From Orenia metallireducens (lineage in GTDB: Bacteria; Bacillota; Halanaerobiia; Halobacteroidales; Halobacteroidaceae), in assembly GCF_001693735.1 (NCBI RefSeq), contig NZ_LWDV01000009.1:493753-557752 (forward strand): a stretch of DNA of 64,000 nucleotides, in the 5' to 3' direction. The notes beneath the pieces are model-generated. The model saw nothing but the letters and a program-made list of their open reading frames with translations. It made no database searches and was not told the DNA's origin. Position 1 is the first letter of the stretch. Every line of letters begins with the position of its first letter. A program made the position numbers and the translations under genes. Below are positions 6,441-57,205 of this stretch, piece after piece.

Positions 6441-6836
6441 TTTAACCTCCTTTAAAGTTTATTATCTATTAATTTAGATTATATATTTTAAATACCTCTT
6501 AATCAAACCTTACTTAGTTAAACAAAGTATATAAATGGCGAAGTAATATATTTTTTGTTAATCACTCACACCTATTTATCTAATACATATTATGTGAATG
6601 GAGTGGGTAAAGAAAAGTAATCCTCTTATTTATTAACATAAATAGAATTATATTCTTCACAGATTTAAAGTCAAGTTCATACTATAATAACAAATAATCG
6701 CAAAAAATCAATGATTAATCACTGCTAATCTAAATTAACAACATTTAATGTTAAAATAGCTATATTTTAGATGTACCACTTGGGTAGTTCTCTGAATATT
6801 ATAAGCTATCAACTTTAATATGAAAGGGGATTATCT
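6441..6836. other. Intergenic leader region of the surface-protein locus
   Basis: About 400 AT-rich bases without a convincing gene. It holds the candidate sigma-K promoter at 6659-6686 and about 140 bases of untranslated leader before the gene at 6837. A short ATG frame near 6598 lacks a ribosome binding site. Confidence 0.5.
6659..6686 (+). promoter_or_regulatory. Sigma-K-like promoter
   Basis: AC at 6659-6660, 17 bases, then CATACTATA at 6678-6686. This matches the Bacillus sigma-K consensus AC-N16/17-CATANNNTA exactly. Sigma-K directs late mother-cell transcription of spore coat and outer-layer genes. It lies about 150 bases upstream of the cysteine-rich protein gene at 6837. The motif is short and A/T-heavy, so a chance match is possible. 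Confidence 0.45.
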
Positions 6837-7904
6837 ATGGATTTTACTACCTTGGTTGATGTGACTATTGAGTTATTTAATATGGACAATAGGCAATTAG
6901 GAGAGCTACAAGATTTTTTACATAATTTAATAGGAAATAAATTAAGAAAGGAGGTAAAATTTCTAATGGATGAAAAGTTAGTTAAGAATAAGAAAGTTGA
7001 ATTAGATTTATCAGATCAAGAAACAGATATTGTTGATTTAACAGAAGATAATTACATTGCAAATCTAACTAAAGTAGATAATTTAACTGAACAGGTTAGG
7101 CAGATACTTGAAGATAATGAAATTATGAATAAGATAGATATTGAAAATATCATTGAGGAAAAACTAAATAACCCTGCAATAACAGATGAATTAAAAGAAT
7201 TAAAGATAGAAGTTAAGGCACTAAAAGAAGAACTACTAAACCAACAAGAATCTATTATTGAAATTGCCCTTAAGAAAATACAAAAAGAGAATCCTTTGAA
7301 AGGAGGTGAAGAAAATATGGCTGATGAGAAAGTAATACTTCAACAAATTGATTGTGAATGTCCTGGCTGTCCAGAAGGATGCCCTGACGAAATTGGTGAT
7401 TTAGAGTTGTGTCAAGAACTTGAAACTATAGAATTCTGTTGCACTTTAGTAATTCCAGATGGTTTCTCAGCTCCAGTAGAACCTTTAACTGTAGCGAATG
7501 TAGCAGAGTATATTGAAGAGAACTTTGACTTGGCTGCTTACTTTGATGAAGACTGTTTTGAATGTACTCCTTTAGAATGTAGGATTAACACTACTTTTGG
7601 AGATATAGCTGTAACTGAAATCTTGATTAAAGGTTGTATTAAGTTTATAGGTGGTATTTGTGTAGCTAGTGATTCGGCACCTGAGACTGGTTCTCAAGCT
7701 CCTGTATGTTGTGAAGGTACTATTTGTGTCCCTGAGCCTACTGCTGTATGCTTTGGAGGCGTTGATGCTAGTTGTGAAAACCTTAGAGTAGTTGATGTTG
7801 ATAATGTAGAAGCAACTAGAGTAGGACTTAGCTGTGGAGATGCTGTTTGGAATGTAACTGGTGAACTTGTATTTGCTTGCGGCCCTTGTGTAGCAAATTC
7901 TTAA
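6837..7904 (+). CDS. Cysteine-rich surface-type protein with nested starts
   Basis: One open frame of 355 codons with three ATG starts, each behind a strong ribosome site. ATG 6837 follows GAAAGGGGA; ATG 6966 (residue 44) follows AAAGGAGGT at 6947-6955; ATG 7317 (residue 161) follows AAAGGAGGTG at 7299-7308. Residues 1-160 are acidic and helical, coiled-coil-like near 120-155. Residues 161-355 form a cysteine-rich domain with about 20 cysteines beginning CECPGCPEGCPDEIGD. That domain is nearly identical to the N-terminal part of the next gene, whose start matches residue 161 here. There is no signal peptide or membrane segment, as in spore coat and exosporium proteins built in the mother cell. 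No known family is recognised. Products of 355, 312 and 195 residues are all plausible. Confidence 0.75.
   Translation: MDFTTLVDVTIELFNMDNRQLGELQDFLHNLIGNKLRKEVKFLMDEKLVKNKKVELDLSDQETDIVDLTEDNYIANLTKVDNLTEQVRQILEDNEIMNKIDIENIIEEKLNNPAITDELKELKIEVKALKEELLNQQESIIEIALKKIQKENPLKGGEENMADEKVILQQIDCECPGCPEGCPDEIGDLELCQELETIEFCCTLVIPDGFSAPVEPLTVANVAEYIEENFDLAAYFDEDCFECTPLECRINTTFGDIAVTEILIKGCIKFIGGICVASDSAPETGSQAPVCCEGTICVPEPTAVCFGGVDASCENLRVVDVDNVEATRVGLSCGDAVWNVTGELVFACGPCVANS
7317..7904 (+). CDS. Internal-start product: cysteine-rich domain alone
   Basis: An alternative 195-residue product starting at the in-frame ATG 7317. The ribosome site AAAGGAGGTG at ideal spacing, and alignment of MADEKVILQQ with the start MTEDRLIIQQ of the paralogue at 7972, support it as a real and perhaps the main start. 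It contains the cysteine-rich domain only. Listed separately because a single-gene annotation would hide it. Confidence 0.6.
   Translation: MADEKVILQQIDCECPGCPEGCPDEIGDLELCQELETIEFCCTLVIPDGFSAPVEPLTVANVAEYIEENFDLAAYFDEDCFECTPLECRINTTFGDIAVTEILIKGCIKFIGGICVASDSAPETGSQAPVCCEGTICVPEPTAVCFGGVDASCENLRVVDVDNVEATRVGLSCGDAVWNVTGELVFACGPCVANS
7353..7881 (+). repeat. Direct repeat, copy 1
   Basis: About 529 bases nearly identical to 8005-8530, including many synonymous positions. The main differences lie near 7555-7610 and one codon near 7760. This indicates recent duplication or gene conversion of the cysteine-rich domain. Confidence 0.9.
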
Positions 7905-7911
7905 TAATTTT

Positions 7912-7940
7912 AAAAGTGTGGGGAATTTCCCACACTTTTA
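7912..7940 (+). terminator. Terminator between the duplicated genes
   Basis: AAAAGTGTGGG and CCCACACTTTT arms around a 6-base loop, followed by ATTTTA. It lies between the two cysteine-rich genes. No convincing promoter is seen in the 30 bases that follow, so the second gene may depend on read-through. Confidence 0.8.
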
Positions 7941-7971
7941 TTTTAAAAATATAATAAGGAGGTAAGATGAA

Positions 7972-9171
7972 ATGACAGAGGATAGATTAATAATTCAACA
8001 AGAATGTGAATGTCCTGGCTGTCCAGAAGGATGCCCTGACGAAATTGGTGATTTAGAGTTGTGTCAAGAACTTGAAACTATAGAATTCTGTTGTACTTTA
8101 GTAATTCCAGATGGTTTCTCAGCTCCAGTAGAACCTTTAACTGTAGCGAATGTAGCAGAGTATATTGAAGAAAACTTTGACTTGGCTGCTTATTTTGATG
8201 AAGATTGCATTGAATGTACTGAACAGATATGTAGAATTGATACAGGTTTTGGAGATATAGCTATAACTGAAATCTTGATTGAAGGTTGTATTAAATTTAT
8301 AGGTGGTATTTGTGTAGCTAGTGATTCGGCACCTGAGACTGGTTCTCAAGCTCCTGTATGCTGTGAAGGTACTATCTGTATCCCTGAGCCTACTGCTGTA
8401 TGCTTTGGGCTAAATGCTAGTTGTGAAAACCTTAGAGTAGTTGATGTTGATAATGTAGAAGCAACTAGAGTAGGACTTAGCTGTGGAGATGCTGTTTGGA
8501 ATGTAACTGGTGAACTTGTATTTGCTTGCGCTCCATGTCCAGTTACTACAACAACTACAACGTCTACTACTACTTCTACAACAACTACTAGTACAACATC
8601 TACTACAACTACTACAACTACTACAACTACTACAACTACTACAACTACTACAACTACTACTTCTACAACTAGTACTACTTCAACTACTACTGCAGCCCCT
8701 GATAGAGTATGTTTCTGTCAAGTAACTACGGCTCCTGGAGCAACAATTGATGAATGTGATGTTATTATTGGAGATGGTTGCCCATGTGATTGTAGTTTGC
8801 AAGTAGAGGTCTGTACAGGTTGTATGGTTAATGGTAGTCAAATCGAATATGAAGAAGGAGACAATTCTCTTATATATCAACAAGTAGGAGGTAGTCCTTT
8901 TAATGTAGGAGAGTTATGTTCAGTAACCTGTCCAACTGATGATACAGCAGAGATTAGAGGATTAGGAGAGTGGAATGGTGAGTTATGTAACTTCCTTATA
9001 ACTTTAACTGAAGTTCCTGAGGAAGATGATGAAGGGACTATAACAATCTACTGTCCTGGAGAATCTTGTCCTGGTAACTTTGATGAAGAAGATATAGTTT
9101 ATCAAGCAGAATTTGAATTCGCAGGAAATTCAGTAAATATTAATCCCCAGCCTTGTGGAGCTCAAGGATAA
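7972..9171 (+). CDS. Cysteine-rich protein with Thr/Ser tract
   Basis: A 399-residue protein in three parts. Residues 1-190 are a cysteine-rich domain almost identical to residues 161-355 of the previous gene. Residues 192-240 are a pure Thr/Ser tract, mucin-like and a likely target for O-glycosylation. Residues 241-399 are a second cysteine-rich, acidic domain (CFCQVTTAPG, GCPCDCSLQVEVCTGC, ending NPQPCGAQG). The start ATG 7972 follows AAGGAGGTAAGATGAA. There is no signal peptide or membrane segment. Three glycosyltransferase-like genes follow directly. By analogy with exosporium glycoproteins such as BclA (same principle, no sequence relation seen), I infer a disulfide-linked spore-surface glycoprotein. 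No known family recognised. Confidence 0.75.
   Translation: MTEDRLIIQQECECPGCPEGCPDEIGDLELCQELETIEFCCTLVIPDGFSAPVEPLTVANVAEYIEENFDLAAYFDEDCIECTEQICRIDTGFGDIAITEILIEGCIKFIGGICVASDSAPETGSQAPVCCEGTICIPEPTAVCFGLNASCENLRVVDVDNVEATRVGLSCGDAVWNVTGELVFACAPCPVTTTTTTSTTTSTTTTSTTSTTTTTTTTTTTTTTTTTTTTSTTSTTSTTTAAPDRVCFCQVTTAPGATIDECDVIIGDGCPCDCSLQVEVCTGCMVNGSQIEYEEGDNSLIYQQVGGSPFNVGELCSVTCPTDDTAEIRGLGEWNGELCNFLITLTEVPEEDDEGTITIYCPGESCPGNFDEEDIVYQAEFEFAGNSVNINPQPCGAQG
8005..8530 (+). repeat. Direct repeat, copy 2
   Basis: Second copy of the cysteine-rich domain DNA at 7353-7881, one codon shorter. Confidence 0.9.
8601..8660 (+). repeat. 9-base tandem repeat encoding Thr
   Basis: About 6.7 copies of ACTACAACT, uninterrupted, inside the Thr/Ser tract. 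The unit is a multiple of three, so copy-number change would alter tract length but keep the frame. Confidence 0.85.
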
Positions 9172-9190
9172 TGATCATTAATTTTATAAA

Positions 9191-9225
9191 TATAAGGGTA
9201 TGTTTATAAACATGCCCTTATATTT
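9191..9225 (+). terminator. Terminator after the Thr-rich gene
   Basis: ATAAGGGTATGTTTA and TAAACATGCCCTTAT arms (one G-T pair), followed by ATTTTA. Confidence 0.75.
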
Positions 9226-9262
9226 TACTAATTTAGATATATTGGCTTATTGTTGAAATATA

Positions 9263-9271
9263 CATATTATA
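9263..9271 (+). promoter_or_regulatory. Possible sigma-K -10 element
   Basis: CATATTATA matches CATANNNTA, 31 bases upstream of the glycosyltransferase ATG. No AC lies at the expected -35 spacing, so this is weak. Confidence 0.2.
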
Positions 9272-9301
9272 TAAGTAAAAATTAAAAAGGGGGAGTTATC
9301 T

Positions 9302-10585
9302 ATGAAAGTAGCTATTTTGACAATGTTTAATGGACTTGACCGAACCTATTCTCTAGTTAATATAGTAGCAGAACAATTAAAGATGTTACTTAATAACAAC
9401 ATTGATACTAAAGTACTTGTTAGTGAACATTGTCCTGATAACAGTCGCCATGGTATTTTTGCTGATGAGAAGATTGAATGGATTAAAATAACAAATACCT
9501 ATAATGGTGAACAAATTCATTGGTATGATTATTCTCAAGCTAAAGGAGAGGTACATAATACCTTTTTTGATGAAGCGGAAGTAATTGCCAAAGATTTAGT
9601 AAATAAATTAGCAGATGTAGATGTTTGTATCATGCATGATATTCATTATCAAGGTTGGCATCTTATTCATAATGTTGCAGTTAGAAAAGCACAAAAAGAA
9701 TTACCTAATCTAAAATTTATTGCTTTTACCCATTCCTTTCCTGTTAATCGACCACCGAACATACAAAAACCTTTTTCAGCTCGTTATACTCCAATGCCTA
9801 ATACTATCTATATATATCCCACTTATTCTGGTATCCCTGCCCTTGCTCAACAATATAACCTACCTGAAGGAAAGTGTCGAGTCGTCAATAATAGTTTGAA
9901 TCTACTTGAAGATATGAGTGAAGAAACCAAGCTTATTGCTGAAAAGACTAATCTCTTTTCACCTGATATTCTAATGATATATCCTGGTAGATTAACAACA
10001 GGTAAGAGATTTGAAAAGGTTGCTGCCTTTGCAGGCGCAATGAAAACTCAAACTGAAAAAAGTGTTAAAATAATCTTTTGTGATTTTAAATCTGCTGATA
10101 TTGAACCTAAAGCATATAAAGTAATTATCAAAAAAACGGGGATTAAATTTGGTCTTAAAGAAGATGATATCTTCTTTACCTCTGATATTGGTTATCCCCA
10201 TGGTATACCCCGAAAAACCGTTTTAGAGCTCTTTACGTTATCTAATTTATTTGTCTGTCCTTCCTATTCTGAATCCTTCGGTTTAACAGTTTTAGAAGCA
10301 GCAAGTAGAGGTAACTTTTTAGTTCTAAATGAAGGTGTTCCAGCATTAGAGGAGTTAGGCAAAAAATTAAACGCTTACTTTATGAGATGGGATGCTCGTA
10401 ATTTTGGTTTTGATACAAAAGAGAATTATAAGCCTTCAGAAGTAGCCTATTATCAAGAACATTCAGAGATTATAGTAAATCTAATGAGACAAAATCAGCT
10501 TATCCACTCTAAAACTATGGTTAGACAACGCTATAGTCCACAATGGATTTGGAAGAATCAATTAGAACCTTTATTAGAAGAATAA
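9302..10585 (+). CDS. Glycosyltransferase, GT-B fold (GT4-like)
   Basis: A cytoplasmic 427-residue protein with a GT-B layout. The N-terminal half starts MKVAILTMFNGLDRTYSLVN, the linker holds PGRLTTGKRFEK, and the C-terminal half carries the GT4 E-x7-E motif SESFGLTVLEAASRG near residues 325-340. GT4 enzymes move a sugar from a nucleotide-sugar to a protein, lipid or glycan acceptor. GGGGGAG lies upstream. It is followed after 14 bases by the GT2 gene, so the two form an operon. Placed after the Thr-rich protein it is a candidate for decorating that tract. Donor and acceptor are unknown. Confidence 0.8.
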   Translation: MKVAILTMFNGLDRTYSLVNIVAEQLKMLLNNNIDTKVLVSEHCPDNSRHGIFADEKIEWIKITNTYNGEQIHWYDYSQAKGEVHNTFFDEAEVIAKDLVNKLADVDVCIMHDIHYQGWHLIHNVAVRKAQKELPNLKFIAFTHSFPVNRPPNIQKPFSARYTPMPNTIYIYPTYSGIPALAQQYNLPEGKCRVVNNSLNLLEDMSEETKLIAEKTNLFSPDILMIYPGRLTTGKRFEKVAAFAGAMKTQTEKSVKIIFCDFKSADIEPKAYKVIIKKTGIKFGLKEDDIFFTSDIGYPHGIPRKTVLELFTLSNLFVCPSYSESFGLTVLEAASRGNFLVLNEGVPALEELGKKLNAYFMRWDARNFGFDTKENYKPSEVAYYQEHSEIIVNLMRQNQLIHSKTMVRQRYSPQWIWKNQLEPLLEE

Positions 10586-10599
10586 AAGGAGGTAAGAAG

Positions 10600-11823
10600 G
10601 TGCCTTATTATAGTTTCGTCATCTTATGTTATAATAACTGGGAAATGTCTAAACAGGCTATTGATACTTTAATAAACTCCATAAATAACAAATATAAAGC
10701 TAAAGGTATTGAATTGATCATTGTTAATAATGGATCAACTGATAATACAAGTGATGGTATTAAAAAGTTACAAAGAGACTATACAAATTACTCTATTGAA
10801 ATCATTTCCCTTAATTTAGAAGAGAATATGGGGTATCCAGTAGGAATTAATCTAGGATTGGCTAAGTGTAGAGGTAAAATGGTAACTATCTTAAATAATG
10901 ATCTAATCTTCCCAGCAGATTGGTTTGATGGCTTAGTCGATATATTGGAAAAGAAGGAGGATATCGGAGTAGCAGCACCCTACTTATCTTATGCTTGTAG
11001 CTCTCAAAATGTAGGTGTTAAACTTAATTCTCAAGAAGAGATAAGTGATTTTGCTAAAGAATTTATGAAAAATAATAAACAAAAGATAAGCTATCCCTTA
11101 AGAGTAATAGGAGCTTGCCTTGTCTTTAAACGAGAGGTTATTGATAAGATTGGAGGCAATGATTTCTGGTTTGGTATAGGACTCTGTGATGATGATGATC
11201 TATCCCTTAGAACAGTAATTGCAGGGTATAAGATAGCTATAACAGGTAGCTCCTTTGTCTACCATCTAGGAACGGTAACCTTTAATCAGCAAGTCCATGA
11301 GCTTAATTGTGCTTTGAGTTCAAATCATCCAAAATTATCAATGAAATGGAACTTACAACCCCATGGAGAATACCAATCTAGAGAAGATATAATAGATAAT
11401 ATTAATTATAGTAAAGATGAACATTACTTCCCTACAAAGATAAGAGAATTTAATGGAATAGAGCCCCCTATAATAGATAAAAATCAAGAAGAGAGATTAC
11501 TTTTAGTCGCTGACTGGAATAATCATAAATCCAAATGGAAAGAGAAGTTAATTTCAATTTTGGATAATATCGATCAAGAAGAACTTTATATCTGGATACC
11601 TAAGGGATACTTTTTAACAGATCAAATATCTGCTGAAGTTAAGGAGATTCTAGATTCAAAAATCGTTGAAACTACAAAAATTAAATTCTATTACCAGAAT
11701 ATTGCTCCAATTAACTTACTAAAGTTTTTAAATTCCTTTGATACTATTTTTACAGTTGATAATGATTTTGTTAATAGATATATAGTCTATTTAGCAGAAG
11801 AAATTTCAATACCTACTAAATAA
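10600..11823 (+). CDS. Glycosyltransferase family 2 protein
   Basis: GT-A enzyme of 407 residues. I start it at GTG 10600, directly after AAAGGAGGTAAGAAG (10585-10599), rather than at ATG 10543 inside the preceding gene. The GT2 domain spans about residues 2-260: YSFVILCYNNWEMS, IIVNNGSTDNT, the metal-site equivalent LNNDLIFPADW, then IGACLVFKREV and a DDDDLSLR segment near the catalytic-base position. The pattern resembles rhamnosyltransferase-type GT2 proteins. Residues 260-407 are an extra domain I cannot assign. It is probably cotranscribed with the GT4 gene and ends at a bidirectional terminator. Confidence 0.8.
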   Translation: MPYYSFVILCYNNWEMSKQAIDTLINSINNKYKAKGIELIIVNNGSTDNTSDGIKKLQRDYTNYSIEIISLNLEENMGYPVGINLGLAKCRGKMVTILNNDLIFPADWFDGLVDILEKKEDIGVAAPYLSYACSSQNVGVKLNSQEEISDFAKEFMKNNKQKISYPLRVIGACLVFKREVIDKIGGNDFWFGIGLCDDDDLSLRTVIAGYKIAITGSSFVYHLGTVTFNQQVHELNCALSSNHPKLSMKWNLQPHGEYQSREDIIDNINYSKDEHYFPTKIREFNGIEPPIIDKNQEERLLLVADWNNHKSKWKEKLISILDNIDQEELYIWIPKGYFLTDQISAEVKEILDSKIVETTKIKFYYQNIAPINLLKFLNSFDTIFTVDNDFVNRYIVYLAEEISIPTK

Positions 11824-11856
11824 GTAAAAGCCACAGGTTTAACCTGTGGCTTTTAC
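11824..11856. terminator. Bidirectional terminator
   Basis: GTAAAAGCCACAGGTT and AACCTGTGGCTTTTAC are perfect inverted arms. It lies between the convergent GT2 gene and the gene on the opposite strand, overlapping the latter's stop. Confidence 0.85.
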
Positions 11857-12692
11857 TTATTTTCTTGTGATTTAAGTGCCATATATAAACAATAATTATG
11901 AACCTTATCAATATCAAGATTTTCAGTAGATAAATGATCATAGTTACCTGCTTCGAATTGAAATTTAGAGAACATACTATCAGTATGCCAGCAATGGATA
12001 TGGGGATGGGTAGCAATTGAATCAGTTGCAGCACTACCATAGTCGAGCTTTGTTCCATCAACTATAAATTTTTCTACAAGGTGATTGACTGCAATTTCAC
12101 AACTATACATAGTTGTTACCCCACTATACCATCCAGGCCATGCACCTTCAGTATCTTTAAATTCAGTTGCCAATAAATACTCTGATATTGATAAAGCCAA
12201 TTTAGAAACCTCTCTTACTAATCTGGCATTTCCATAATGGGTTGAGCCTAGGTTATGAATCCCTTGGTGCCTAAGCTCAAAATAGTCAGCTACTCTTTTA
12301 ATGTTCTCTCTAACTTCATCATTATTGGCATATCCCCCTTGCCCAACTGTATATAAATCAGGGTAAAAAGAATCCCAAGCAGGAGTCAAAAAAGTATCAG
12401 CATCTGTTCTCAAAATCAAGTCATATTTATCTAAAAAATCAGCTTGGCTACCAACTAAACAACTAATTGAATTGATAAAGCGATAATTCAAAAATACATC
12501 AGGTTCACTTAAAATATTATACTCTACTTTAATACAATCATCTGGCACCCATTCTAGAGCCTCCTTCGTCCCAAATACAACTAAATCTGTATCTTTAGAG
12601 CTTATATACTTATATGAGGTATATAGACCTTGGAGTTGTAACTTAAGTGGTCTTTTATCTTCAACAAACACAACTATAGCTCTTTTCAACAA
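11853..12692 (-). CDS. Glycosyltransferase-like protein (DUF7164-like)
   Basis: A soluble 279-residue protein. The central stretch YDLILRTDADTFLTPAW has a D-x-D placed as in GT-A enzymes. Late motifs include GWYSGVTTMYSCEIA and HIHCWHTDSMFSKF. The pattern recalls the DUF7164 glycosyltransferase-like family, but that is memory, not a search. It begins at TTG 12692 (TTG 12689 also possible) after AAAGGAGGGAAT. It is convergent with the GT2 gene and shares its terminator. In context it is a third candidate sugar transferase of the surface-protein locus. Confidence 0.6.
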   Translation of the reverse strand: MLKRAIVVFVEDKRPLKLQLQGLYTSYKYISSKDTDLVVFGTKEALEWVPDDCIKVEYNILSEPDVFLNYRFINSISCLVGSQADFLDKYDLILRTDADTFLTPAWDSFYPDLYTVGQGGYANNDEVRENIKRVADYFELRHQGIHNLGSTHYGNARLVREVSKLALSISEYLLATEFKDTEGAWPGWYSGVTTMYSCEIAVNHLVEKFIVDGTKLDYGSAATDSIATHPHIHCWHTDSMFSKFQFEAGNYDHLSTENLDIDKVHNYCLYMALKSQENK

Positions 12693-12848
12693 GATTCCCT
12701 CCTTTCTTATAATAAATATTCATTACTCTTTTAAATTATTTTTTATAAACAGATTTAATAAGCCTATTTAGATATTTTCGCTCACTATATTAAGTTAAAA
12801 GTAATATTATATAGTATTAGTTGTAAAAAAATAATAGGGAGGTGTTAT

Positions 12849-13544
12849 ATGGATATTAAAAAGATAAAAAATTATGACATTGATTTAAATCCAGTTGGAA
12901 AAGGAAATTATTCAGAGGTTTTCTTGGCTAAAGATCTCAATCAACAAAGCACAGTTGCCATCAAAGTTTCATCTTGTATTGATATGTCTAAATATGAAGC
13001 TACTGTGATGAAAAACTATGGTTCCCATCCTCTTTTTCCCAAATTCTATGATTTTTTTATAATAGAAGATAAAGCTTATATTGTAATGGAATACTTTCCT
13101 GGAAAAGGGATTGGACATTGGAATTATCATTCCACCATAGATATAGGGAGGAAGAATGAACAAGAAGCGATTTCAATTACTTTAAAAGTATTACAAGGAT
13201 TAGAACACCTTCATCAGATAGGTTTTGCTCATCATGATCTATTGCCAAAAAATATATTATTTAGGGATGAAATCCCTGCCAAAATAAAAATAATTGATTT
13301 TGGTTTAGCAAAAGAATTAAATTATGAAAAGAATCATAAGTATAAAGTTGGTGATATATCTGCAGCAGCAACGCTGTGTATTTATTTAATTAATGGAGTT
13401 GTTTCTAAAATACCACTTGATGATTTAAAAACAATATCTAGTGATTTAAGAGAAGTGTTATCTAAAGCCTTTGAACCTAATTTAGGAAAACGATATCAAT
13501 CTGCAACAGAATTTATTAAAGTTATACAACCTTTAGTCCACTAA
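12849..13544 (+). CDS. Hanks-type Ser/Thr protein kinase
   Basis: A compact kinase of 231 residues, shorter than the usual 260-residue domain and without membrane or sensor domain. Catalytic parts are all present: glycine loop GKGNYSEV (17-24), ATP lysine K39 in VAIK, helix-C glutamate near E50, HHD (128-130, in place of HRD) with N135, and DFG (150-152). The activation segment is short and has no clear APE. A strong ribosome site (GGGAGGTG) precedes ATG 12849. A decayed copy follows 23 bases later. Next to the Thr-rich protein and glycosyltransferases, it may phosphorylate a surface or coat component; this is inference. Confidence 0.8.
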   Translation: MDIKKIKNYDIDLNPVGKGNYSEVFLAKDLNQQSTVAIKVSSCIDMSKYEATVMKNYGSHPLFPKFYDFFIIEDKAYIVMEYFPGKGIGHWNYHSTIDIGRKNEQEAISITLKVLQGLEHLHQIGFAHHDLLPKNILFRDEIPAKIKIIDFGLAKELNYEKNHKYKVGDISAAATLCIYLINGVVSKIPLDDLKTISSDLREVLSKAFEPNLGKRYQSATEFIKVIQPLVH

Positions 13545-13567
13545 AACCTTGATTAAGGAGGTGTTTT

Positions 13568-14258
13568 ATGGAAACAAAACGGTTAAAAAATTATGAAATT
13601 AAGACAAAACCTATTGGTAGAGGACAGTTTGCTTATGTCTGTTGGGGTAGAGATCTTAATCAGCAACGTGAAGTGGCTATTAAATCATCATCTCATTTTA
13701 ATACCTCTAAAAAAGAAGCAACTGTAATGGAAAGTTACGGAAGTCATCCTTTCTTACCTGAATTTTATGATTTTTTATAATAGAAGATAGAGCTTATATT
13801 GTAATGGAATATTTTCCTGGTGAAACTCTTGGTCCTTCTAATCATAATAAAGCTGGGAAAAAGAGAAGTGAAGAAGAAGCAATTTTGATTACTTTTAATT
13901 TATTACAAGGATTACAACGTATTCATCAAATAGGATTTGCTCATAATGATATTTTGCCAAAAATATATTAATTATGGATGATAACCCCAATAAAATAAAA
14001 CTGATTGATTTTGGATTAGCAAGACCCCTAGATTCTAAAAGATATGAAAAATATAGATACAAAGATTTATATTTGATAGCGTTAACTTGCCTTTACCTTA
14101 TTAAAGGTCCTCTATCAGAGAGACCAATAAATGATTTGGATATTGTAAAAAATAATAACCTAAAAGATATCTTATATAAAGGTATTCACCCTAATTTGGA
14201 AAAGAGATATCATTCTGTAGATGAATTTATTGAGGATTTAAAACCTTTAGTTAAATAA
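13568..14258 (+). pseudogene. Second Ser/Thr kinase, two frameshifts
   Basis: Tandem paralogue of the kinase at 12849, with its own ribosome site (AAGGAGGTG). The frame breaks at T6 (13771-13776), where the intact copy has T7, giving a stop at 13778. It breaks again at A5 (13959-13963), where the intact copy has A6, giving a stop at 13968. With both bases restored the protein would be about 230 residues with glycine loop GRGQFAYV, VAIK, HND (for HRD) and DFG all present. Each break is a one-base loss in a homopolymer, so it may be a young pseudogene, a sequencing error or slippage-controlled expression. Residual frames are 13568-13780, about 13781-13963, and up to 14258. Confidence 0.75.
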
Positions 14259-14273: not shown

Positions 14274-14304
14274 AAAAAACAGAGGGAATTCCCTCTGTTT
14301 TTTT
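14274..14304. terminator. Bidirectional terminator
   Basis: AAAAAACAGAGGGAA and TTCCCTCTGTTTTTT perfect arms between the convergent kinase copy and metY. Confidence 0.85.
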
Positions 14305-14308: not shown

Positions 14309-15508
14309 TTATTTATTCACTTTCTTAAAAGATTGCTCTAAATCTCCAATAATATCCTCTACTCTTTCAATTCCTACAGATACTCTAATTAAATTAGCTG
14401 TAATACCTGCTGCTTTTTGCTCTTCTGCTGATAATTGCTCATGAGTAGTAGATGCTGGATGGATAATTAGTGTTCTAGAGTCTCCAACATTAGCTAATAA
14501 TGAACATAATTCAACATTATTGATTAAAGCTTTCCCTGCTTTAACTCCACCTTTGATTCCAAAACATAACATTCCACCAAAGGCTTTCTGTTGTTTCTTA
14601 GCAAGTTCATGCTGTGGATGGCTCTCTAACCCAGGATATCTAACCCACTCTACCTGTGGATGAGCTTCTAACCATTGAGCTACCTTTAGAGCATTTTCGG
14701 AATGCCTCTCCATCCTAAGTGCTAAAGTCTCTAAGCCTTGAATGAATAGCCAAGTATTGAAAGGGCTTGCTGCTGGTCCAATATCACGATAACCCTCTAC
14801 TCTTGCCTTTAATAGAAAATCTGCAGGACCTACAATAATTCCACCAATTGAGCTACCATGACCACCGATATATTTAGTAGCTGAATGGACTACAATATCA
14901 GCACCAAATTCAATTGGACGAGACAAGTATGGTGTACAGAAAGTATTATCTACTACCAATTTTAAATCGTGCTTATGGGCAATCTCAGCCACCTTCTCGA
15001 TATCAACTATATCTAAAGTAGGATTTCCTGGACTCTCTAAATATAAGAACTTAGTATTCTCATTAATAGCTTCTTCCCAAGCATTAAAATCATGGGGGTC
15101 AACAAAGTTAGTATCAATTCCATACTTAGGTAAGGTCGTAGAAAAAAGATTATAAGTACCTCCATATAAATACTTAGAAGCTACTATCTCTCCTCCACCT
15201 TCAGCCAAAGTAATAGCTGTTAAGTGGATAGCAGACATACCTGAAGAGGTAACCAAGCCTGCCTCTGCACCCTCTAATTCTGCTAATCTCTTCTCAAATA
15301 CATCATGGGTAGGATTCATAATTCTTGAATAGATATTACCAGCTTCCTCTAAAGCAAATAATCTAGCTGCATGGTCAGCATCATCGAAAATATAAGAAGT
15401 CGTCTGATAAATAGGTACTGCCCTTGAATTTTGACTATCCTGTTTTGGATTATACCCTCCATGTAAAGCAACTGTTTCAAATCCATATTTTCCTTCTCTA
15501 CTACTCAT
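14309..15508 (-). CDS. metY: O-acetylhomoserine sulfhydrylase family
   Basis: PLP enzyme of the Cys/Met metabolism family, 399 residues. It probably makes homocysteine from O-acetylhomoserine and sulfide in methionine synthesis. Visible are the N-terminal AVPIYQTTSYIF, the substrate loop IYSRIMNPT, SSGMSAIH, and the PLP lysine in HSATKYIGGHGSSIGG, whose context fits MetY better than methionine gamma-lyase (usually SATKY-SGHGD). It is slightly shorter than the usual 425 residues. AAGGAGGAATTAAT precedes ATG 15508. No terminator separates it from the small ORF and SAM riboswitch upstream, so methionine starvation should raise its transcription. Confidence 0.85.
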   Translation of the reverse strand: MSSREGKYGFETVALHGGYNPKQDSQNSRAVPIYQTTSYIFDDADHAARLFALEEAGNIYSRIMNPTHDVFEKRLAELEGAEAGLVTSSGMSAIHLTAITLAEGGGEIVASKYLYGGTYNLFSTTLPKYGIDTNFVDPHDFNAWEEAINENTKFLYLESPGNPTLDIVDIEKVAEIAHKHDLKLVVDNTFCTPYLSRPIEFGADIVVHSATKYIGGHGSSIGGIIVGPADFLLKARVEGYRDIGPAASPFNTWLFIQGLETLALRMERHSENALKVAQWLEAHPQVEWVRYPGLESHPQHELAKKQQKAFGGMLCFGIKGGVKAGKALINNVELCSLLANVGDSRTLIIHPASTTHEQLSAEEQKAAGITANLIRVSVGIERVEDIIGDLEQSFKKVNK

Positions 15509-18539: not shown

Positions 18540-19733
18540 TTATTTATATGGATTTATAGTAATAACCTCTACCTCATCAATAGCCTTCTCAATCAAATCA
18601 TCTATATGTAAATCCTTCTCTCCTTCTTCCACATCCTCTGGAGTAGCTTTAGTAGCTGGCTTCTCTGGAACAAAGACTGTACAGCAATCCTCATAAGGTT
18701 GAATTGAAGTTTCATAAGTACCAATTCTTTTGGCAATTTCAATAATTTCAACCTTATCTAAGCCAATCAATGGTCTGAAGACAGGCATCTCTGGGACCAT
18801 ATTAGTAACATACATCGATTCCATAGTCTGACTTGCAACCTGACCCATACTTTCACCTGTCAATAAAGACTTTCCTCCATTATTTAAGGTGATTTGCTCA
18901 GCAATTCTCATCATAATCCTTCTCATAATAATCGTAGTCAATTCAGCTGGACATTTGTCATTCATCTCTGTCTGAATATCGGTAAAGTGAACAACATGTA
19001 ATTTGGTCTCCCCTTGGTAAGTAGCCAAAGTCTCAGCTAAATCAATAACCTTCTCTTTAGCCCTATCACTGGTAAAGGGAAAACTATGAAAATAAATCGG
19101 TACTATTTTAACTCCACGCTTCATCAGCATCCAACCAGCTACAGGACTATCGATTCCCCCTGACAATAATAAACCTGCTGTTCCTGTTACTCCAACAGGC
19201 AATCCACCACTACCAGGGATATCCTGAGTATAGATATAGACTGCTTTCTTTCTAACCTCTACATTAACCATCAATTCAGGATTATGGACATCTACCTCTA
19301 ATCGCCCATCTTCAGTGTTGATTAGGATATGGGCACCCAACTCTCGATTTAATTCCATACTATTTAATGGGAAAGACTTATTATTACGGCGAGCATTGAC
19401 TTTAAAGGTAGTTACTCCTGATTTAGGTAAAGCCTCTTGTACCATCTCTAAGGAAGCATTCTTAACCTGATCTACATCCAGTTCCACTTCACATGCAGGA
19501 GCTATACCAACAATTCCAAAGACCTTCTGCAATTTACTGATAACCTTATCTCTGGCAAGATCAGTCTCTACATAAATCCGACCATAAGTCTTATAAACAT
19601 CTAATTCATCAGATTCCTTCTTTAAAGTCTTGATTATATTAGAGATTAACTTATCCTCAAACATAAATCTATTCTTACCTTTCAAACCAATCTCACCATA
19701 ACGAATCAAATATAACCTCTTCACTCTCATCAC
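18540..19733 (-). CDS. thiI: tRNA 4-thiouridine synthase ThiI
   Basis: Enzyme of 397 residues that adenylates and sulfurates tRNA uridine 8, and in some bacteria supplies sulfur for thiamine thiazole. It has a ferredoxin-like N-terminus, a THUMP domain (about 60-165) and a PP-loop ATPase starting LLSGGIDSPVAGWMLMKRG. It lacks the C-terminal rhodanese domain of E. coli ThiI, like the Bacillus protein, which takes sulfur from a dedicated cysteine desulfurase. That partner lies directly upstream and overlaps by 4 bases (ATGA type). Confidence 0.95.
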   Translation of the reverse strand: MMRVKRLYLIRYGEIGLKGKNRFMFEDKLISNIIKTLKKESDELDVYKTYGRIYVETDLARDKVISKLQKVFGIVGIAPACEVELDVDQVKNASLEMVQEALPKSGVTTFKVNARRNNKSFPLNSMELNRELGAHILINTEDGRLEVDVHNPELMVNVEVRKKAVYIYTQDIPGSGGLPVGVTGTAGLLLSGGIDSPVAGWMLMKRGVKIVPIYFHSFPFTSDRAKEKVIDLAETLATYQGETKLHVVHFTDIQTEMNDKCPAELTTIIMRRIMMRIAEQITLNNGGKSLLTGESMGQVASQTMESMYVTNMVPEMPVFRPLIGLDKVEIIEIAKRIGTYETSIQPYEDCCTVFVPEKPATKATPEDVEEGEKDLHIDDLIEKAIDEVEVITINPYK

Positions 19734-49425: not shown

Positions 49426-50334
49426 CTAAACATCTTGATTGTCTTTCTTCTTTAACTCTTCATGGACAGTGATTGGATCAATATGAATTAAAATCTCTTG
49501 TATATTCTTTATCTCATCTTTTACTCTCTTTTCTGCTCTTCTAGAAATTTTATGCCCTTCTACAACAGTCAAATCATCTTCTACAACAATTCTTAGATCT
49601 ATAAAGATATCTGGACCATGGTTTCTTACTTTTAAGTCTCTAATATCAATTATTTCCTCACTAGTACAGACCAGCTCACTAATCTGCTGATGAAGCTTAT
49701 GGTCTACCTTATCCATCAAATCATTAACAGCCTCCATAAATATTTCATATCCCATATGGAGAATAAATAAAGCAACTACTAAACCTGCTATTGGATCAGC
49801 CATTAAATAACCAACTTTAGCTCCTATTACTCCGATTAAAGCAGCTATTGACGATAAGGCATCAGATCGATGGTGATGAGCATCTGCCATTAAAGCCTTA
49901 TTATTTATCCTTTCCCCCTCTCGATAAGTATATCTATACATCCACTCCTTAGCGATAATTGATATTAAAGCTATCCAAAGGTTTAATATTCCTGGCTCCT
50001 TTAGATCATTTCTGATAATAGTCATTAAGCTATCTTTAATAATAATTAAACCTGTTAAAAATAATAAGATACCTATGAATTTAGCTGCAATTGTTTCAAT
50101 CTTTCCATGCCCATAAGGATGCTCTTCATCAGCAGGTTCACGAGAAATCCTAATTGCTATCCAGACTGCTAGAGTTGAGATTACATCAGAGATGGAATGG
50201 ATACCATCAGCTACAATCCCTTGACTAAAGAAGATAAATCCTATCAGCACCTTAGCGATCGATAATAAAAAATTAACTAACAAAGTTACTAATGTTATCT
50301 TTTTACTACTTTGATATCGCTCTTCTGGATTCAT
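49426..50334 (-). CDS. Cation diffusion facilitator family transporter
   Basis: A CDF protein of 302 residues, exporting divalent metals (zinc, iron, manganese or other) in exchange for protons. Six membrane helices (about 12-205) carry GIHSISDV in helix 2 and ADAHHHRSDALSS in helix 5, the transport-site regions. The cytoplasmic C-terminal domain includes IRDLKVRNHGPDIFIDLRIVV and an HIDP segment. The HxxxD helix pattern suits a FieF/MntE-type protein, but the metal cannot be fixed. It starts at ATG 50334 and appears monocistronic. Confidence 0.9.
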   Translation of the reverse strand: MNPEERYQSSKKITLVTLLVNFLLSIAKVLIGFIFFSQGIVADGIHSISDVISTLAVWIAIRISREPADEEHPYGHGKIETIAAKFIGILLFLTGLIIIKDSLMTIIRNDLKEPGILNLWIALISIIAKEWMYRYTYREGERINNKALMADAHHHRSDALSSIAALIGVIGAKVGYLMADPIAGLVVALFILHMGYEIFMEAVNDLMDKVDHKLHQQISELVCTSEEIIDIRDLKVRNHGPDIFIDLRIVVEDDLTVVEGHKISRRAEKRVKDEIKNIQEILIHIDPITVHEELKKKDNQDV

Positions 50335-50557
50335 GATACTCCTCCCCTTAAGATTAATAAAACCAATATATCTAAATTAAAAACAAAACTCAACTATTAT
50401 TACTAAGTATTTTTATTTTATATCAGTAATTTATGTATATGTACCATACTTAAAATTTGTTAAATCAATTTTAAATTAATACAAATAATTATAATTTTAA
50501 TAATCATTTTCAAATAATATTGATTTTAAACTGCATCATCTTTTTTTAAAGCAAGAA

Positions 50558-50581
50558 AACCAGAGGGATATTCCTCTGGTT
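50558..50581 (-). terminator. Terminator of cdd
   Basis: AACCAGAGGGATA and TTCCTCTGGTT arms with a tight loop, 31 bases past the cytidine deaminase stop. Confidence 0.7.
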
Positions 50582-50611
50582 ATAATAAATTCCATATTCT
50601 TACAATGAATT

Positions 50612-51013
50612 TTAACTTAAATCCTGATTAGAGAAAGAACCCCATAATAAATTATCAGCCTTCTTAATGATTATATCTTCATTTAAGTTACTCATAATTA
50701 CATCAATATTCTTTCCAAATTCTACAATTACCTGGCGACAGGCTCCACAAGGAGGACAAGGTCTTTTGGTATCAGCAACAATAGCAATAGCTTCAAATTC
50801 CATCTTACCTTCAGATATAGCTTTAAAGATTGCTGTTCTTTCAGCACAGTTACTCAAGCCATAAGAAGAATTCTCTACATTACACCCAGTATAGATTTCG
50901 CCATCTTTAGTCAATAAAGCTGCTCCTACTTTGAAGTTAGAATAGGGAACATAAGCTTTCTCCCTTGCCTCAGTGGCTTTCTTTACTAGTTCTTTAATCT
51001 TCTTTTCAATCAT
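50612..51013 (-). CDS. cdd: Cytidine deaminase
   Basis: A tetrameric-type cytidine deaminase of 133 residues, started at ATG 51013 (MIEKKIKELV) rather than ATG 51037. The zinc site is complete: GCNVENSSYGLSNCAERTA (Cys and catalytic Glu) and PCPPCGACRQVIVEF (two Cys). It converts cytidine and deoxycytidine to uridine forms for pyrimidine salvage. Confidence 0.93.
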   Translation of the reverse strand: MIEKKIKELVKKATEAREKAYVPYSNFKVGAALLTKDGEIYTGCNVENSSYGLSNCAERTAIFKAISEGKMEFEAIAIVADTKRPCPPCGACRQVIVEFGKNIDVIMSNLNEDIIIKKADNLLWGSFSNQDLS

Positions 51014-51180
51014 TAATAACTTCCCCCTCATCATCAAGTTAGACGTCTAACGAATTTTCTGAAAAAATTATAATTAGTATATTTTTATTATATCAAAGTA
51101 AACCTTCTTCTAAAAGGGTATTTATACAAAATTACTAATATTTCTTGAGATAATCAATAAATTTTACTAACCAGCAAAGA

Positions 51181-51218
51181 AAAAAGAGCTAATAACAGCT
51201 TTGTTCTTAGCTCTTTTT
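51181..51218 (-). terminator. Terminator of the PrcB-like gene
   Basis: AAAAAGAGCTAA and TTAGCTCTTTTT arms around a 14-base loop, 15 bases past the stop. Confidence 0.8.
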
Positions 51219-51232
51219 AATCTCCTCAAAAT

Positions 51233-51715
51233 TTATAATCTTTTCTTTATCAACTTCTTCCCTTCTACTGAGACAAAGATAACCTCTTTAATATCTTTAA
51301 CTTCTGGCCAAGGTACCTTAACAATATCATAAGGGTGAGTTATAACCTGTGTAACTATATCTGTAGCAGCTGGACCTACAGCTTTTACTACAATAACTAA
51401 TTTATCATCCTGTTTTCTAACCTGTTTAATCTTTATTCCATAACCACCAGTTGCTTGCTCACCTAAACTAACATATATCCCTAGTTGATCTTTGAAACTT
51501 AAACCGTTAATCCCTCTCAATTCTTCTTGTAAGCTAAGCAGATTATCTTCTGTAATTAGAATAAATTTAGCGTCTTCTGGATAGTCACCCTGTTGCCATC
51601 TTCCTTCCAACTTTTCTGGGTTCTTATAAAGCAGTTCTCCACTTTGCAACATATTTTGATTACAACCAGTGATTAATAATATTGTTAATAATAGTAAAAC
51701 AAAGTTTACTTTCAT
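51233..51715 (-). CDS. Lipoprotein with PrcB-like domain
   Basis: A 160-residue lipoprotein: hydrophobic N-terminus and lipobox LLITGC with the modified cysteine near residue 18. The C-terminal part resembles the PrcB_C domain: SLGEQATGGYGIKIKQV and TQVITHPYDIVKVPW. That domain was named after a protease-complex subunit; its role here is unknown. AAGGAGTATTAAT precedes the ATG. Confidence 0.75.
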   Translation of the reverse strand: MKVNFVLLLLTILLITGCNQNMLQSGELLYKNPEKLEGRWQQGDYPEDAKFILITEDNLLSLQEELRGINGLSFKDQLGIYVSLGEQATGGYGIKIKQVRKQDDKLVIVVKAVGPAATDIVTQVITHPYDIVKVPWPEVKDIKEVIFVSVEGKKLIKKRL

Positions 51716-51842
51716 ATTAATACTCCTTCTATCTCTAATTTGGAAAGTTAATTTATAAATTAATCAACAAAAACACCTTAATTTTATCATATCAGATAAA
51801 TTTGATGAAATTGTGACATTGTTTAATAAATTTAAATAATTA

Positions 51843-52367
51843 TTAAAATAAGGCAAAGATAATTCCCAGTATACCTGAAGTCACAATCACCCCAATAGGA
51901 TGTAATCTTACCTTAGCTAATAAAAAGAATGCTATTATTCCAATAATAATACCATTAATTCCTGTAATAACCTCTTTACCTATAGAGATAACTGCTACTA
52001 TAATCAGTCCCACTACTGCAGGTCTTATCCCTTGCCAAGCCCCTTCTACTAGAGGATGATCACTGAACTTATCTAATAACTTAGCTACAATAGTGATAAT
52101 TATCAAAGAAGGGGAAATCAAACCAAAGGTACTCATAGCTGTACCCCCAATTCCAGCCACCTTATAACCAACAAAGGTAGCATTGTTGATAGCAATAGCT
52201 CCAGGAGTCATCTGAGAGACAGCTAAAATATCGACAAATTGATCTATAGTCAACCACCCATGAGTAACCATTTCCTGCTGAATTAGAGGTATCATCGCAT
52301 ATCCTCCACCAAAGGTAAATAATCCTATCTTAAAAAATGTTAAAAATAGCTCAATCAATATCATCAT
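51843..52367 (-). CDS. Chromate transporter, second half
   Basis: A 174-residue CHR-family half protein with about five membrane segments. Signature FKIGLFTFGGGYAMIPLIQQE and a VSQMTPGAIAINNATFVGYK segment. Members of this family expel chromate or, in short paired form, act together as antiparallel halves. It overlaps the upstream half by 17 bases. No chromate-responsive regulator is adjacent. Confidence 0.88.
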   Translation of the reverse strand: MMILIELFLTFFKIGLFTFGGGYAMIPLIQQEMVTHGWLTIDQFVDILAVSQMTPGAIAINNATFVGYKVAGIGGTAMSTFGLISPSLIIITIVAKLLDKFSDHPLVEGAWQGIRPAVVGLIIVAVISIGKEVITGINGIIIGIIAFFLLAKVRLHPIGVIVTSGILGIIFALF

Positions 52368-52914
52368 TATACTCCTTAGTCTTATAGATTGAGGTAATCA
52401 TTCCAATTATTCCAGCTAATCCAATCAATAATATTGGATGTAATTTAAAGAATAAAATCCCTAATATCATCCCTAGTGTATAAAGAAAACTACTATAATT
52501 AATAATAGCCTTCTTACTCATCTTATAACCTGCCCAAAAAATCAAGACTACAACAGCAGACCTGACCCCCTTAAACAAGGCCTCTACCCATTGATTTCCT
52601 TGTAAATTAAGCAAAAGTTGGGCAATTGATAATATAATTAGTATCGAGGGTAAGCTAATTGCTAAAGCAGAGGTCAATGCGCCTAATACTCCTCTTAACT
52701 TATAGCCGATAAACAAGGAAGAATTAACCGCTATTACTCCTGGTATCCCTTGAACTACTGCAATAATATCGATAAATTCTTCCTCTGTTAACAATCCTTT
52801 CTGCTCCACCAGCTCTTTCTCAATAAGTGGTATCATTGCATATCCTCCACCAAAGGTAAATCCACCAATTCTCATAAAGGTACTAAATAGTTTAATCAGT
52901 TTTATTTTCTCCAT
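52351..52914 (-). CDS. Chromate transporter, first half
   Basis: A 187-residue CHR-family half protein. Signature FMRIGGFTFGGGYAMIPLIEKE and VQGIPGVIAVNSSLFIGYK. It is paired with the overlapping gene at 51843; two-gene CHR pairs are common in Firmicutes and both halves are needed. It starts at ATG 52914. Confidence 0.88.
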   Translation of the reverse strand: MEKIKLIKLFSTFMRIGGFTFGGGYAMIPLIEKELVEQKGLLTEEEFIDIIAVVQGIPGVIAVNSSLFIGYKLRGVLGALTSALAISLPSILIILSIAQLLLNLQGNQWVEALFKGVRSAVVVLIFWAGYKMSKKAIINYSSFLYTLGMILGILFFKLHPILLIGLAGIIGMITSIYKTKEYNDDID

Positions 52915-53107
52915 ATAATCCCCCTCAAAACTAATTAATATGATACTAATATTACATTGATTGACTGATTCTAGCTATACCTTTTATCTTTATAAATAAA
53001 CACAGATTAGAATGGTTATTAAGAGTTATTTTTCACTTTTTATAATATCTCTATTAACTATATACAAGATAATTGTTAAATTACTAGAATTAATTATACC
53101 TCTATAT

Positions 53108-53137
53108 AAAAAAGCAGACTTGCAAGTCTGCTTTTTT
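53108..53137 (-). terminator. Terminator of the sigma-factor gene
   Basis: AAAAAAGCAGACTTG and CAAGTCTGCTTTTTT perfect arms, about 135 bases past the sigma-factor stop. Confidence 0.8.
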
Positions 53138-53271
53138 ATATTCCTAACTAATCCATATTTAATTATATTATAATTATCTATTCCTTTCAATATAATCATT
53201 CAAGATTTCTAAATAAATAAGACATTATCTCTAATAAAATTTAAAATCTTGACCACTAATCAACTAAATAA

Positions 53272-54102
53272 TCAGTTAACCATCACTAAATAATTATCTA
53301 CACCTCTATTATAATTTAAAGATTTTAATTTCTCTAAGGCTTGATTGAGCAACTGCCTAATCCTTTCTCTAGAGAGATTCAATTTTCTTGCTATCTCTTG
53401 AAAAGTTCTCTCTCTACCATCCTCTAAACCAAATCTTAACTTAACGATTAACTCTTCACGCTTGCTTAAGTATTTCAATAAATTCTTAATAACTTCTTTT
53501 AAATCTTCTTTTAACACTTTATCTACTAAATCAAATTCACTAGGAATTAAATTAAAGAAATCATCCTCCTGCTCTTTACCTATCTTATTATCTAAGGAAG
53601 AGATATCTTGCTTCAACTCTATTAGGTCATAGACCTTCTCTATTGGTAAGTCTAACTCTTCAGATAATTCCTCTGGAGTAGCCTCCCGTTGTAAGATAGT
53701 TCGCATATAATCTTGAGCCCTCTTTAATTTATTAATATCATTTTGAATCTGAAAGGAGAGTCTAATAGTTCTTCCATGGCGTTTGATAGCACGTCTTACC
53801 TTCTGCTCTATCCACCAGGTAGCATAAGTACTGAACCTATAGCCTTTACTATAATCAAACTTCTCTACTGCTTTAATCAGCCCAATATTTCCTTCCTGAA
53901 TCAAATCCAATAAATCTAAGCCTTGACCTGTATATCTTTTAGCAATACTTATTACTAATCTGAGATTATAACTAATTAATTTCTCTTTAGCCTCTTTATC
54001 ACCTTGAGAGATTAACAGCCCTAATTTCTGCTCATCCTCCCAGTTCAATAACTTATGTTCACTCTCTTGAAAATATATATTGGTTAAATTCATTATCATC
54101 AA
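53272..54102 (-). CDS. Group-2 sigma-70 factor
   Basis: A 276-residue sigma factor related to the housekeeping SigA but lacking region 1.1. Region 1.2 and 2: [37 protein letters not shown] and [19 protein letters not shown], the last typical of a SigA/RpoS-like 2.4. Region 3 covers about 140-180. Region 4: [19 protein letters not shown], then [16 protein letters not shown]. It has the primary-sigma-like -10 recognition helix, so it should read promoters close to SigA. No anti-sigma gene is adjacent. It starts at the ATG cluster near 54102. Confidence 0.9.
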
Positions 54103-54720
54103 CTCCCTTATTAAAATCGATTATTATCTATTATAGACAAATCAATAGGCTAAAATAATAACTTTTGAAAGATAGTCTCTTTATCTTACATTTTATATTA
54201 TAGGTAATAATCTTGACGAAAGTATGACAATAATAAACTTTCTTATAAAAAAACTATATCTTAAAGAGCTAATAGTCTTAAGATACAGCTTCTTTTAGAT
54301 AAATATAATAGATCATAATAGCTATGCTAACTAAAATTTCATATATATTCTACCATTTAATGGGTATAAAGCGACACTTTTCACTTTTTAAAAAACAAGC
54401 AAAAGGTCTAGAAGAAAATATACCTACGACTCTACAGAACAAGACTCTCCGTGGCTCTCTAGGGAATATAGAACAATTCCCTTTCGCACAAAACCAACCC
54501 ACTCACTCAGCAATCAAAGTAATGAATACTACTATTATCTAAACTTCTTAATTAAAATTTAATTAATCTCTAAATCTTTGTTCAATTTTTGCTTCGTTCA
54601 AATAGGAATTTTTTCGGCTTAAAAACCTTTAAATTCTTTTAATTATATATTGTCAATTGTAAATTCAGAAAATGTCGCAATATCTCTATATAATACCAGT
54701 ATCTCTACTAGCTCATAAGA
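54103..54720. other. Intergenic region with an unexplained block
   Basis: About 620 bases. From roughly 54390 to 54520 the base composition is visibly less AT-rich than the flanks. A 72-codon frame opens at 54324 (54324-54542), containing TTLQNKTLRGSLGNIEQF, but there is no ribosome site in front of ATG 54324 or 54360. It may be a remnant of a gene or a non-coding element. A weak hairpin (TATCTTAA ... TTAAGATA) lies near 54257-54285. Confidence 0.35.
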
Positions 54721-55395: not shown

Positions 55396-55446
55396 TTAAT
55401 CCCCTCCTTACTAATCTATTATAAGATATATTTCTTTAATTGCAAG

Positions 55447-55474
55447 AAAAAAGCCCCGTTAACGGGGCTTTTTT
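55447..55474 (-). terminator. Terminator of the DUF1858 gene
   Basis: AAAAAAGCCCCGTT and AACGGGGCTTTTTT perfect arms, 12 bases past the stop. It separates this gene from the downstream Crp/Fnr gene. Confidence 0.9.
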
Positions 55475-55486
55475 AATCATCAATAT

Positions 55487-57092: not shown

Positions 57093-57205
57093 TGTAACCC
57101 TCCTTTAACTATTATTTTCTCACTTTATTATATGTATGTTTAATTTTAGTATTTCTTGCATATACCCATGATATTTTTTGATAAAAACTCTTTCTTTAAA
57201 AGAAA

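Follow-up and report, generated by a model that had tools for sequence, protein, structure and literature searches.

Most of what is known about glycoproteins of the spore surface comes from Bacillus and Clostridioides, in which the rod of these proteins is collagen. To our knowledge, the outer spore layers of the deep-branching class Halanaerobiia have hardly been studied. Here we analyze a locus of Orenia metallireducens (Halobacteroidaceae; host genome size 3.47 Mb), which lies in a stretch of 64,000 nucleotides termed the window (NCBI RefSeq assembly GCF_001693735.1, contig NZ_LWDV01000009.1, positions 493,753 to 557,752 of the forward strand). The locus comprises two genes for cysteine-rich (Cys-rich) proteins, the second of which contains a threonine/serine (Thr/Ser) tract, and genes for glycosyltransferases (GTs) and protein kinases. 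We consider it likely that these genes specify a modular endospore-surface glycoprotein together with its decorating enzymes.

The described systems closest to the locus include the following three. In Clostridioides difficile the glycosyltransferase SgtA, adjacent to an exosporium glycoprotein of the BclA/BclA3 type, attaches N-acetylglucosamine to threonine (PMC7157674). In the F-ENA/F-Anchor endospore appendages, the domain that makes up the bulk subunit is also found joined to a rod, by which it is displayed (PMC11952670). In Bacillus subtilis an internal start within SafA yields the short form C30, and the long form bears a localisation signal that C30 lacks (PMC6490927).

Comparison with described spore-surface proteins

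Gene 1 of the locus is a frame of 355 codons (6837-7904), the 3' part of which encodes a Cys-rich domain. The 399 residues encoded by gene 2 (7972-9171) begin with a Cys-rich domain, which the Thr/Ser tract links to another domain that contains cysteines. The gene 2 product resembles BclA and BclA3 in that an anchor is followed by a long rod containing Thr and by a domain at the C-terminus, and in that a dedicated glycosyltransferase is encoded nearby; rhamnose genes in a related locus extend the likeness. However, the rod is polythreonine (TTTS in a relative) rather than collagen Gly-X-Y and contains no glycine, and the enzymes are of the GT4, GT2 and DUF7164 types and are joined by kinases. 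Neither the exosporium leader (TIGR03720) nor the BclA C-terminal domain (PF18573) was matched in Pfam and NCBIfam at E values up to 1. The arrangement of F-ENA and F-Anchor recurs insofar as one domain is shared by gene 1 and the rod protein, yet here it precedes the rod on its N-terminal side and there is no collagen stalk; the structural proteins and their separate domains did not match DUF4183 of F-ENA in Pfam at E up to 1.

Like SafA and C30, the long and short forms predicted for gene 1 would arise from an internal in-frame start on one mRNA, the long form having an extra N-terminal region; the internal start of the window differs in carrying a conserved strong Shine-Dalgarno (SD) sequence. 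Judged by sequence, gene 1 thus has the conserved internal start of dual-start coat proteins of the SafA/C30 type, and Pfam and NCBIfam gave no match of the window protein to SafA domains. S-type ENAs, disulfide-linked pili, may share with the window protein a flexible Cys-rich N-terminus before a beta domain, a likeness which we draw from a low-confidence model; DUF3992 of these pili was not matched in Pfam. The structural models, of moderate to low confidence, gave no fold match, a result that speaks neither for nor against kinship with the Ena jelly-roll fold. The best reading of these comparisons is that the window protein would work like BclA or F-Anchor, yet by sequence it stands outside those families.

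Co-occurrence of threonine tracts and the enzyme cassette

Long Thr/Ser coding tracts are present in six of the 59 class genomes, and close, full-length relatives of the window GT4 (75-81% identity) are found in exactly the same six. Assuming independent genomes, the chance of this exact match is 1 in C(59,6) = 2e-8; three of the six belong to one genus, and because the genomes are not independent, the value is a bound on surprise and not a P-value. The search for tracts used a single pattern, which differently built tracts would escape. No close GT4 was found in the three genomes whose stalk-protein homologues are Thr-free and have Gly/Asn or short linkers (G001, G004 and G005; handles of this kind designate genomes of our set). 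The DUF7164 protein accompanies five of the six tract genomes. Beyond these it is seldom met: a sample across the phylum contained it in 2 of 398 genomes, and 14 control genomes lacked it; a literature search on DUF7164 found no paper.

The GT4 is 76% identical to its counterpart in the congener used for comparison, Orenia metallireducens MSL40, and 75% identical to that of G349, which belongs to another family, whereas most neighboring genes are 76-96% identical in MSL40 and shared genes 43-82% identical in G007, presumably Halobacteroides halobius. Because its identity is similar within and between families, unlike that of the neighboring genes, the GT4 appears to have spread horizontally. 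G007 also holds a lone Cys-rich gene without Thr tract (L013:10575-11276), flanked by homologues of window 14309-15508 and 18540-19733. Since these are the same flanking genes as in Orenia, this arrangement suggests that the transferase/kinase cassette was a later addition. Homologues of window 49426-61175 flank both the relocated GT4 of MSL40 and the Thr-tract/rhamnose locus of G011, a third Orenia genome (L059, L065), a hint that this part of the window corresponds to a recurrent insertion region.

The mobility of the GT4 and its position elsewhere in MSL40, together with the fact that the window transferases lie past a terminator-like hairpin and lack a sigma-K-like site, would also be expected if a spore structural pair merely happened to have as its neighbor a glycosyltransferase/kinase cassette that is unrelated to it and moves horizontally. 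Such a cassette should not match the presence of tracts exactly over 59 genomes, and it adjoins tract proteins with three different anchors; among the readings weighed here, we hold a chance neighborhood to be the least probable.

The first-pass annotation of this DNA, made from the letters alone, had envisaged a glycosylated and possibly phosphorylated spore outer layer and had called for a search of the same gene set in relatives. The glycosylated Thr-tract spore protein gains good support from the comparison and from the joint occurrence of tract and GT4. Phosphorylation is the weaker part of that reading: the kinases accompany only four of the six tract loci (the window genome G000, G008, G349 and G007), and in MSL40 and G011 neither the tract nor the GT4 was seen to have a kinase in its vicinity. 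In G011 a full dTDP-rhamnose gene set and a true sulfotransferase (PF13469, 8e-20) stand between the GT4/GT2/DUF7164 genes and the tract genes, which include a 424-residue TTTS tract. A candidate sulfotransferase of MSL40 (L012:11972-12580) was discarded, as it shares a similar P-loop motif but has no family match.

The kinases could in principle be the main modifiers, producing a poly-phosphothreonine rod while the transferases make an unrelated polysaccharide; they adjoin the tract protein at the four loci named above, and the catalytic motifs of kinase 1 are complete. Yet it is the GT4 that tracks the tract in six of six genomes, two of which show no kinase nearby, and one of the two window kinases is broken, so that we regard this alternative as improbable. 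Each frameshift in kinase 2 lies inside a homopolymer run, and the cassettes of G008 and G349 have two intact kinases each; split by such one-base shifts, kinase 2 is therefore either a pseudogene or the product of a sequencing error.

Exchange of anchors and linkers

The Cys-rich domain, with which the first-pass annotation was unfamiliar, proved equally foreign to the databases: neither it nor the C-terminal domain of gene 2 has a match in Pfam or NCBIfam (E up to 1) or in PHROGs, and sequence comparison with the PDB gave nothing credible. For the tract of gene 2, a weak match to Mucin is the sole one in Pfam. Sequence searches found Cys-rich domains of the window type only in Orenia and G007; a more distant version is present in G007 and in G001, which we take to be Acetohalobium arabaticum (profile-profile E 3e-6). 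AlphaFold2 predicts an all-beta Cys-rich domain (pLDDT 73) with a disordered Cys-rich N-terminus, and the whole gene 2 protein was modeled with a pLDDT of 67 and a pTM of 0.43; in both cases PDB matches did not rise above noise. A resemblance of the C-terminal domain to an odorant-binding protein (best VIA Z 5.5, rmsd 3.8 over 104 residues) falls into the unspecific range and was dismissed.

Across the class the plan of the stalk protein is kept, with anchors and linkers swapped. In the window a Cys-rich anchor leads by way of the Thr tract to the C-terminal domain, and in G001 a Cys-rich anchor does so by way of a Gly/Asn linker. In G008 a small CC...IRLDCICAI domain precedes 101 consecutive Thr and the C-terminal domain, and G349 has the same small domain, 48 Thr/Ser and a C-terminal part with only weak pairwise similarity. 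A small CC...IDCICAI domain is joined to the C-terminal domain by a Gly/Asn linker in G005 and by almost no linker in G004, while in G011 it is followed by the tract of 424 residues. Finally, G007 combines a helical anchor with 94 residues of TTSS. The profiles of the CC...IDCICAI and Cys-rich anchors do not match each other, and the two were therefore handled as distinct anchors rather than as one family. One profile-profile match of C-terminal domains was set aside, because both alignments share one sequence and the match is thus not independent evidence; the kinship of these domains rests on the genome search and on direct pairwise comparison.

Two of these loci show further peculiarities. 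In G008 (L047:13522-16010), camelysin-like proteins (weak PF12389) and several stand-alone CC...IDCICAI proteins are encoded near the stalk locus. In G011 (L065:983-1886), a second Thr-tract gene shifts frame within the tract, which parts the anchor from the C-terminal domain; this could reflect slippage, phase variation or an assembly error. A phage or plasmid origin was rejected, as the Cys-rich domain and DUF7164 had no match in phage records, the GT4 none in plasmids, and the Cys-rich domain, the CC domain and the GT4 none in viral contigs; the matches in PHROGs were generic glycosyltransferases only.

Internal start and concerted evolution of the Cys-rich domains

Gene 1 contains, in its own reading frame, an ATG at 7317 behind a strong SD sequence (AAAGGAGGTGA), and such internal SD-ATG pairs recur in five genes of four genomes (one each in the window, MSL40 and Acetohalobium, and two in Halobacteroides). 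The shared internal start accounts for the signature KGG(D/E)..M found in most of the long frames. A further in-frame ATG at 6966 stands behind another strong SD sequence (AAAGGAGGT) and is likewise present in MSL40. The extension upstream of the internal start (6837-7316) is coding, with third positions being most variable and a dN/dS of 0.21 in comparison with MSL40; the long frame is under purifying selection, and the extensions of Orenia and Halobacteroides are related (pairwise E 3e-5). Because the conserved internal start parallels SafA/C30, we predict that both a long and a short form of gene 1 are made, the long one probably as a tether and the short one as a bulk subunit.

The Cys-rich domains of gene 1 and gene 2 are 89.5% identical to each other in the window and 93.8% in MSL40, whereas identity between the genomes amounts to 61-67%. 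The two anchor domains thus evolve in concert. Repeated homogenisation is expected if one lattice has to accommodate both domains, but it might equally result from gene conversion alone. A hairpin separates gene 1 from gene 2 in the window as well as in MSL40, although the sequences differ, and may keep the stalk protein less abundant than the bulk subunit.

Links to sporulation

The sigma-K consensus of B. subtilis reads mACm-N16/17-gCATAnnnTA. The window promoter agrees with it exactly but for a T in place of the lower-case g; by sequence it resembles the promoters of the sigma-K (mother-cell) regulon and would be used by sigma-K. In four genomes, those of the window, MSL40, G007 and G001, the lead Cys-rich gene is preceded by a site of this kind, against a background of 7 in 215 upstream regions. 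Upstream of the promoter, the block 6560-6625 is strongly conserved among Orenia species (AATCACTCACACCTATTTATC ... GGGTAAAGAAAAG) and is possibly a binding site of a sporulation regulator.

SpoIVA is encoded in 27 of the 59 class genomes, including all six tract genomes; tract and GT4 are both missing from the 32 genomes without SpoIVA. In a family of 14 genomes (f3, consisting of genus g13 and relatives), SpoIVA occurs once, and tract and GT4 occur in no member. Genes for SPOCS domain proteins (PF12673), which belong to spore morphogenesis, adjoin related loci in G001 and G005 (L062, L063); among the window proteins, Pfam searches found no PF12673, which places none of them with SipL/SPOCS. 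The tract proteins and the enzymes have no segment resembling a signal peptide or membrane span, whereas a control membrane protein scored clearly. If the protein stays in the mother cell and is assembled there, its glycosylation in the cytosol would be in keeping. The first-pass annotation had named the domain's presence in many non-sporulating species, or in secreted proteins with signal peptides, as signs that would tell against a role in the spore; neither turned up among the related tract proteins and the SpoIVA-negative class genomes.

Exported proteins often have mucin-like tracts rich in Thr, and Mucin is what Pfam weakly offers for this one, which would suit a mucin-like or S-layer-like surface protein of growing cells with no link to the spore. 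A protein of that kind is hard to reconcile with the lack of export signals in every tract protein, with a set confined to SpoIVA-positive genomes and with the sigma-K-like promoter and SPOCS neighbors, and we therefore assign this explanation a low probability.

Gas vesicles are found on the spores of some Orenia and Sporohalobacter. For Orenia sivashensis spores, an exosporium with gas vesicles beneath it has been reported (PMC4187190). In G001, a GvpL/GvpF gas-vesicle gene (L062:15553-16350) is located near the stalk-protein homologue and the SPOCS genes.

Features of the locus

The features are compiled in Table 1. As an observation, the first-pass annotation held up as a whole, and its coordinates and tract length were exact: the sigma-K-like promoter, two Cys-rich proteins without signal sequence (their N-termini are not hydrophobic), the Thr/Ser tract, the GT4-like, GT2 and GT-A-like genes and the enclosing terminator-like hairpins are all in place, with further hairpins after genes 1 and 2. 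The tandem pair of Hanks kinases that it listed is half intact, as kinase 2 is disrupted.

Table 1. Features of the Orenia metallireducens locus (window coordinates)
Feature	Position	Strand	Remarks
Sigma-K-like promoter, CACA-N16-CATACTATA	6658..6686	+	Both boxes kept in MSL40; spacer diverged
N-terminal helical/coiled-coil-like extension, in frame with Cys-rich domain	6837..7316	+	dN/dS ~0.21 vs MSL40
Cys-rich beta domain, short form of 195 aa, SD AAAGGAGGTGA and ATG at 7317	7317..7904	+	In-frame SD-ATG recurs in relatives
Intergenic hairpin 3' of gene 1, possible attenuator	7911..7940	+	Hairpin of other sequence at equivalent place in MSL40
Gene 2, N-terminal Cys-rich anchor domain	7972..8544	+	89% identical to gene 1
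Gene 2, Thr/Ser tract, 49 residues (42 T, 7 S)	8545..8691	+	Composition of translation
Gene 2, C-terminal Cys-containing beta domain and stop codon	8692..9171	+	Homologues in G008, G001, G004, G005
Strong hairpin/terminator 3' of gene 2	9188..9225	+	Unrelated hairpin there in MSL40
GT4-type glycosyltransferase	9302..10585	+	PF00534, 1.9e-9; only enzyme common to all six tract genomes
GT2-type glycosyltransferase	10600..11823	+	PF00535, 5e-22; 66% identical copy in G011
Bidirectional terminator-like hairpin	11818..11862	.	
DUF7164 protein, GT-A-like by DxD-type motif (DAD)	11853..12692	-	PF23741, 7e-56
Hanks-type protein kinase 1, without membrane segment	12849..13544	+	VAIK, HxD, DFG intact
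Hanks kinase 2, disrupted by two one-base frameshifts	13568..14258	+	Split over three frames
Bidirectional terminator-like hairpin	14274..14303	.	

A model for a proposed spore-surface glycoprotein

In the explanation that we favor, the modular endospore-surface glycoprotein, a mother-cell promoter of the sigma-K type would drive the Cys-rich gene 1, which would be translated from two in-frame starts. The short form would constitute the bulk subunit of a disulfide-cross-linked outer layer, and the long form would use its N-terminal helical region to tether or seed this layer, as full-length SafA does for C30. The intergenic hairpin would pass part of the transcription on into gene 2. Because the anchor domain of gene 2 is nearly identical to the bulk subunit, it could enter the same lattice and display the Thr/Ser rod, which the second Cys-containing domain would cap. 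Soluble glycosyltransferases in the cytosol of the mother cell would O-glycosylate the rod, either ahead of assembly or while it proceeds. The GT4, as the one enzyme present in all tract genomes, probably initiates the glycan or builds its core, and the GT2 and DUF7164 enzymes would extend the glycan. In the least certain step, a kinase might place charged groups on the protein or on its glycan, a role that sulfate may fill in relatives.

Several points weigh against this explanation. Neither the Cys-rich nor the C-terminal domain is tied by a fold or family match to a known spore protein, and the glycoprotein locus is known here from its genes. The six tract genomes are partly related, and the GT4 of MSL40 is located apart from the tract gene. 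Moreover, no sigma-K-like site was found ahead of the window genes for transferases and kinases, and their co-expression with the structural pair therefore rests on gene neighborhood.

Implications

More tentatively, and with doubts that we consider substantial, the locus might represent an undescribed class of spore surface in halophilic anaerobes: a disulfide lattice of the long and short products of one gene, into which interchangeable anchors plug polythreonine rods. The enzymes of a cassette that spreads horizontally would glycosylate these rods in the cytosol of the mother cell, and kinases or a sulfotransferase would charge them negatively. For the spores of these bacteria, an unrelated, almost pure Thr/Ser rod seems to do the job of the collagen rod, with enzymes of its own. 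The natural match of presence and absence singles out a few defined enzymes as candidates for the attachment of sugars to polythreonine and for their extension. Should the internal start function in the predicted way, gene 1 would provide a second, unrelated case of the long/short design of SafA and C30.

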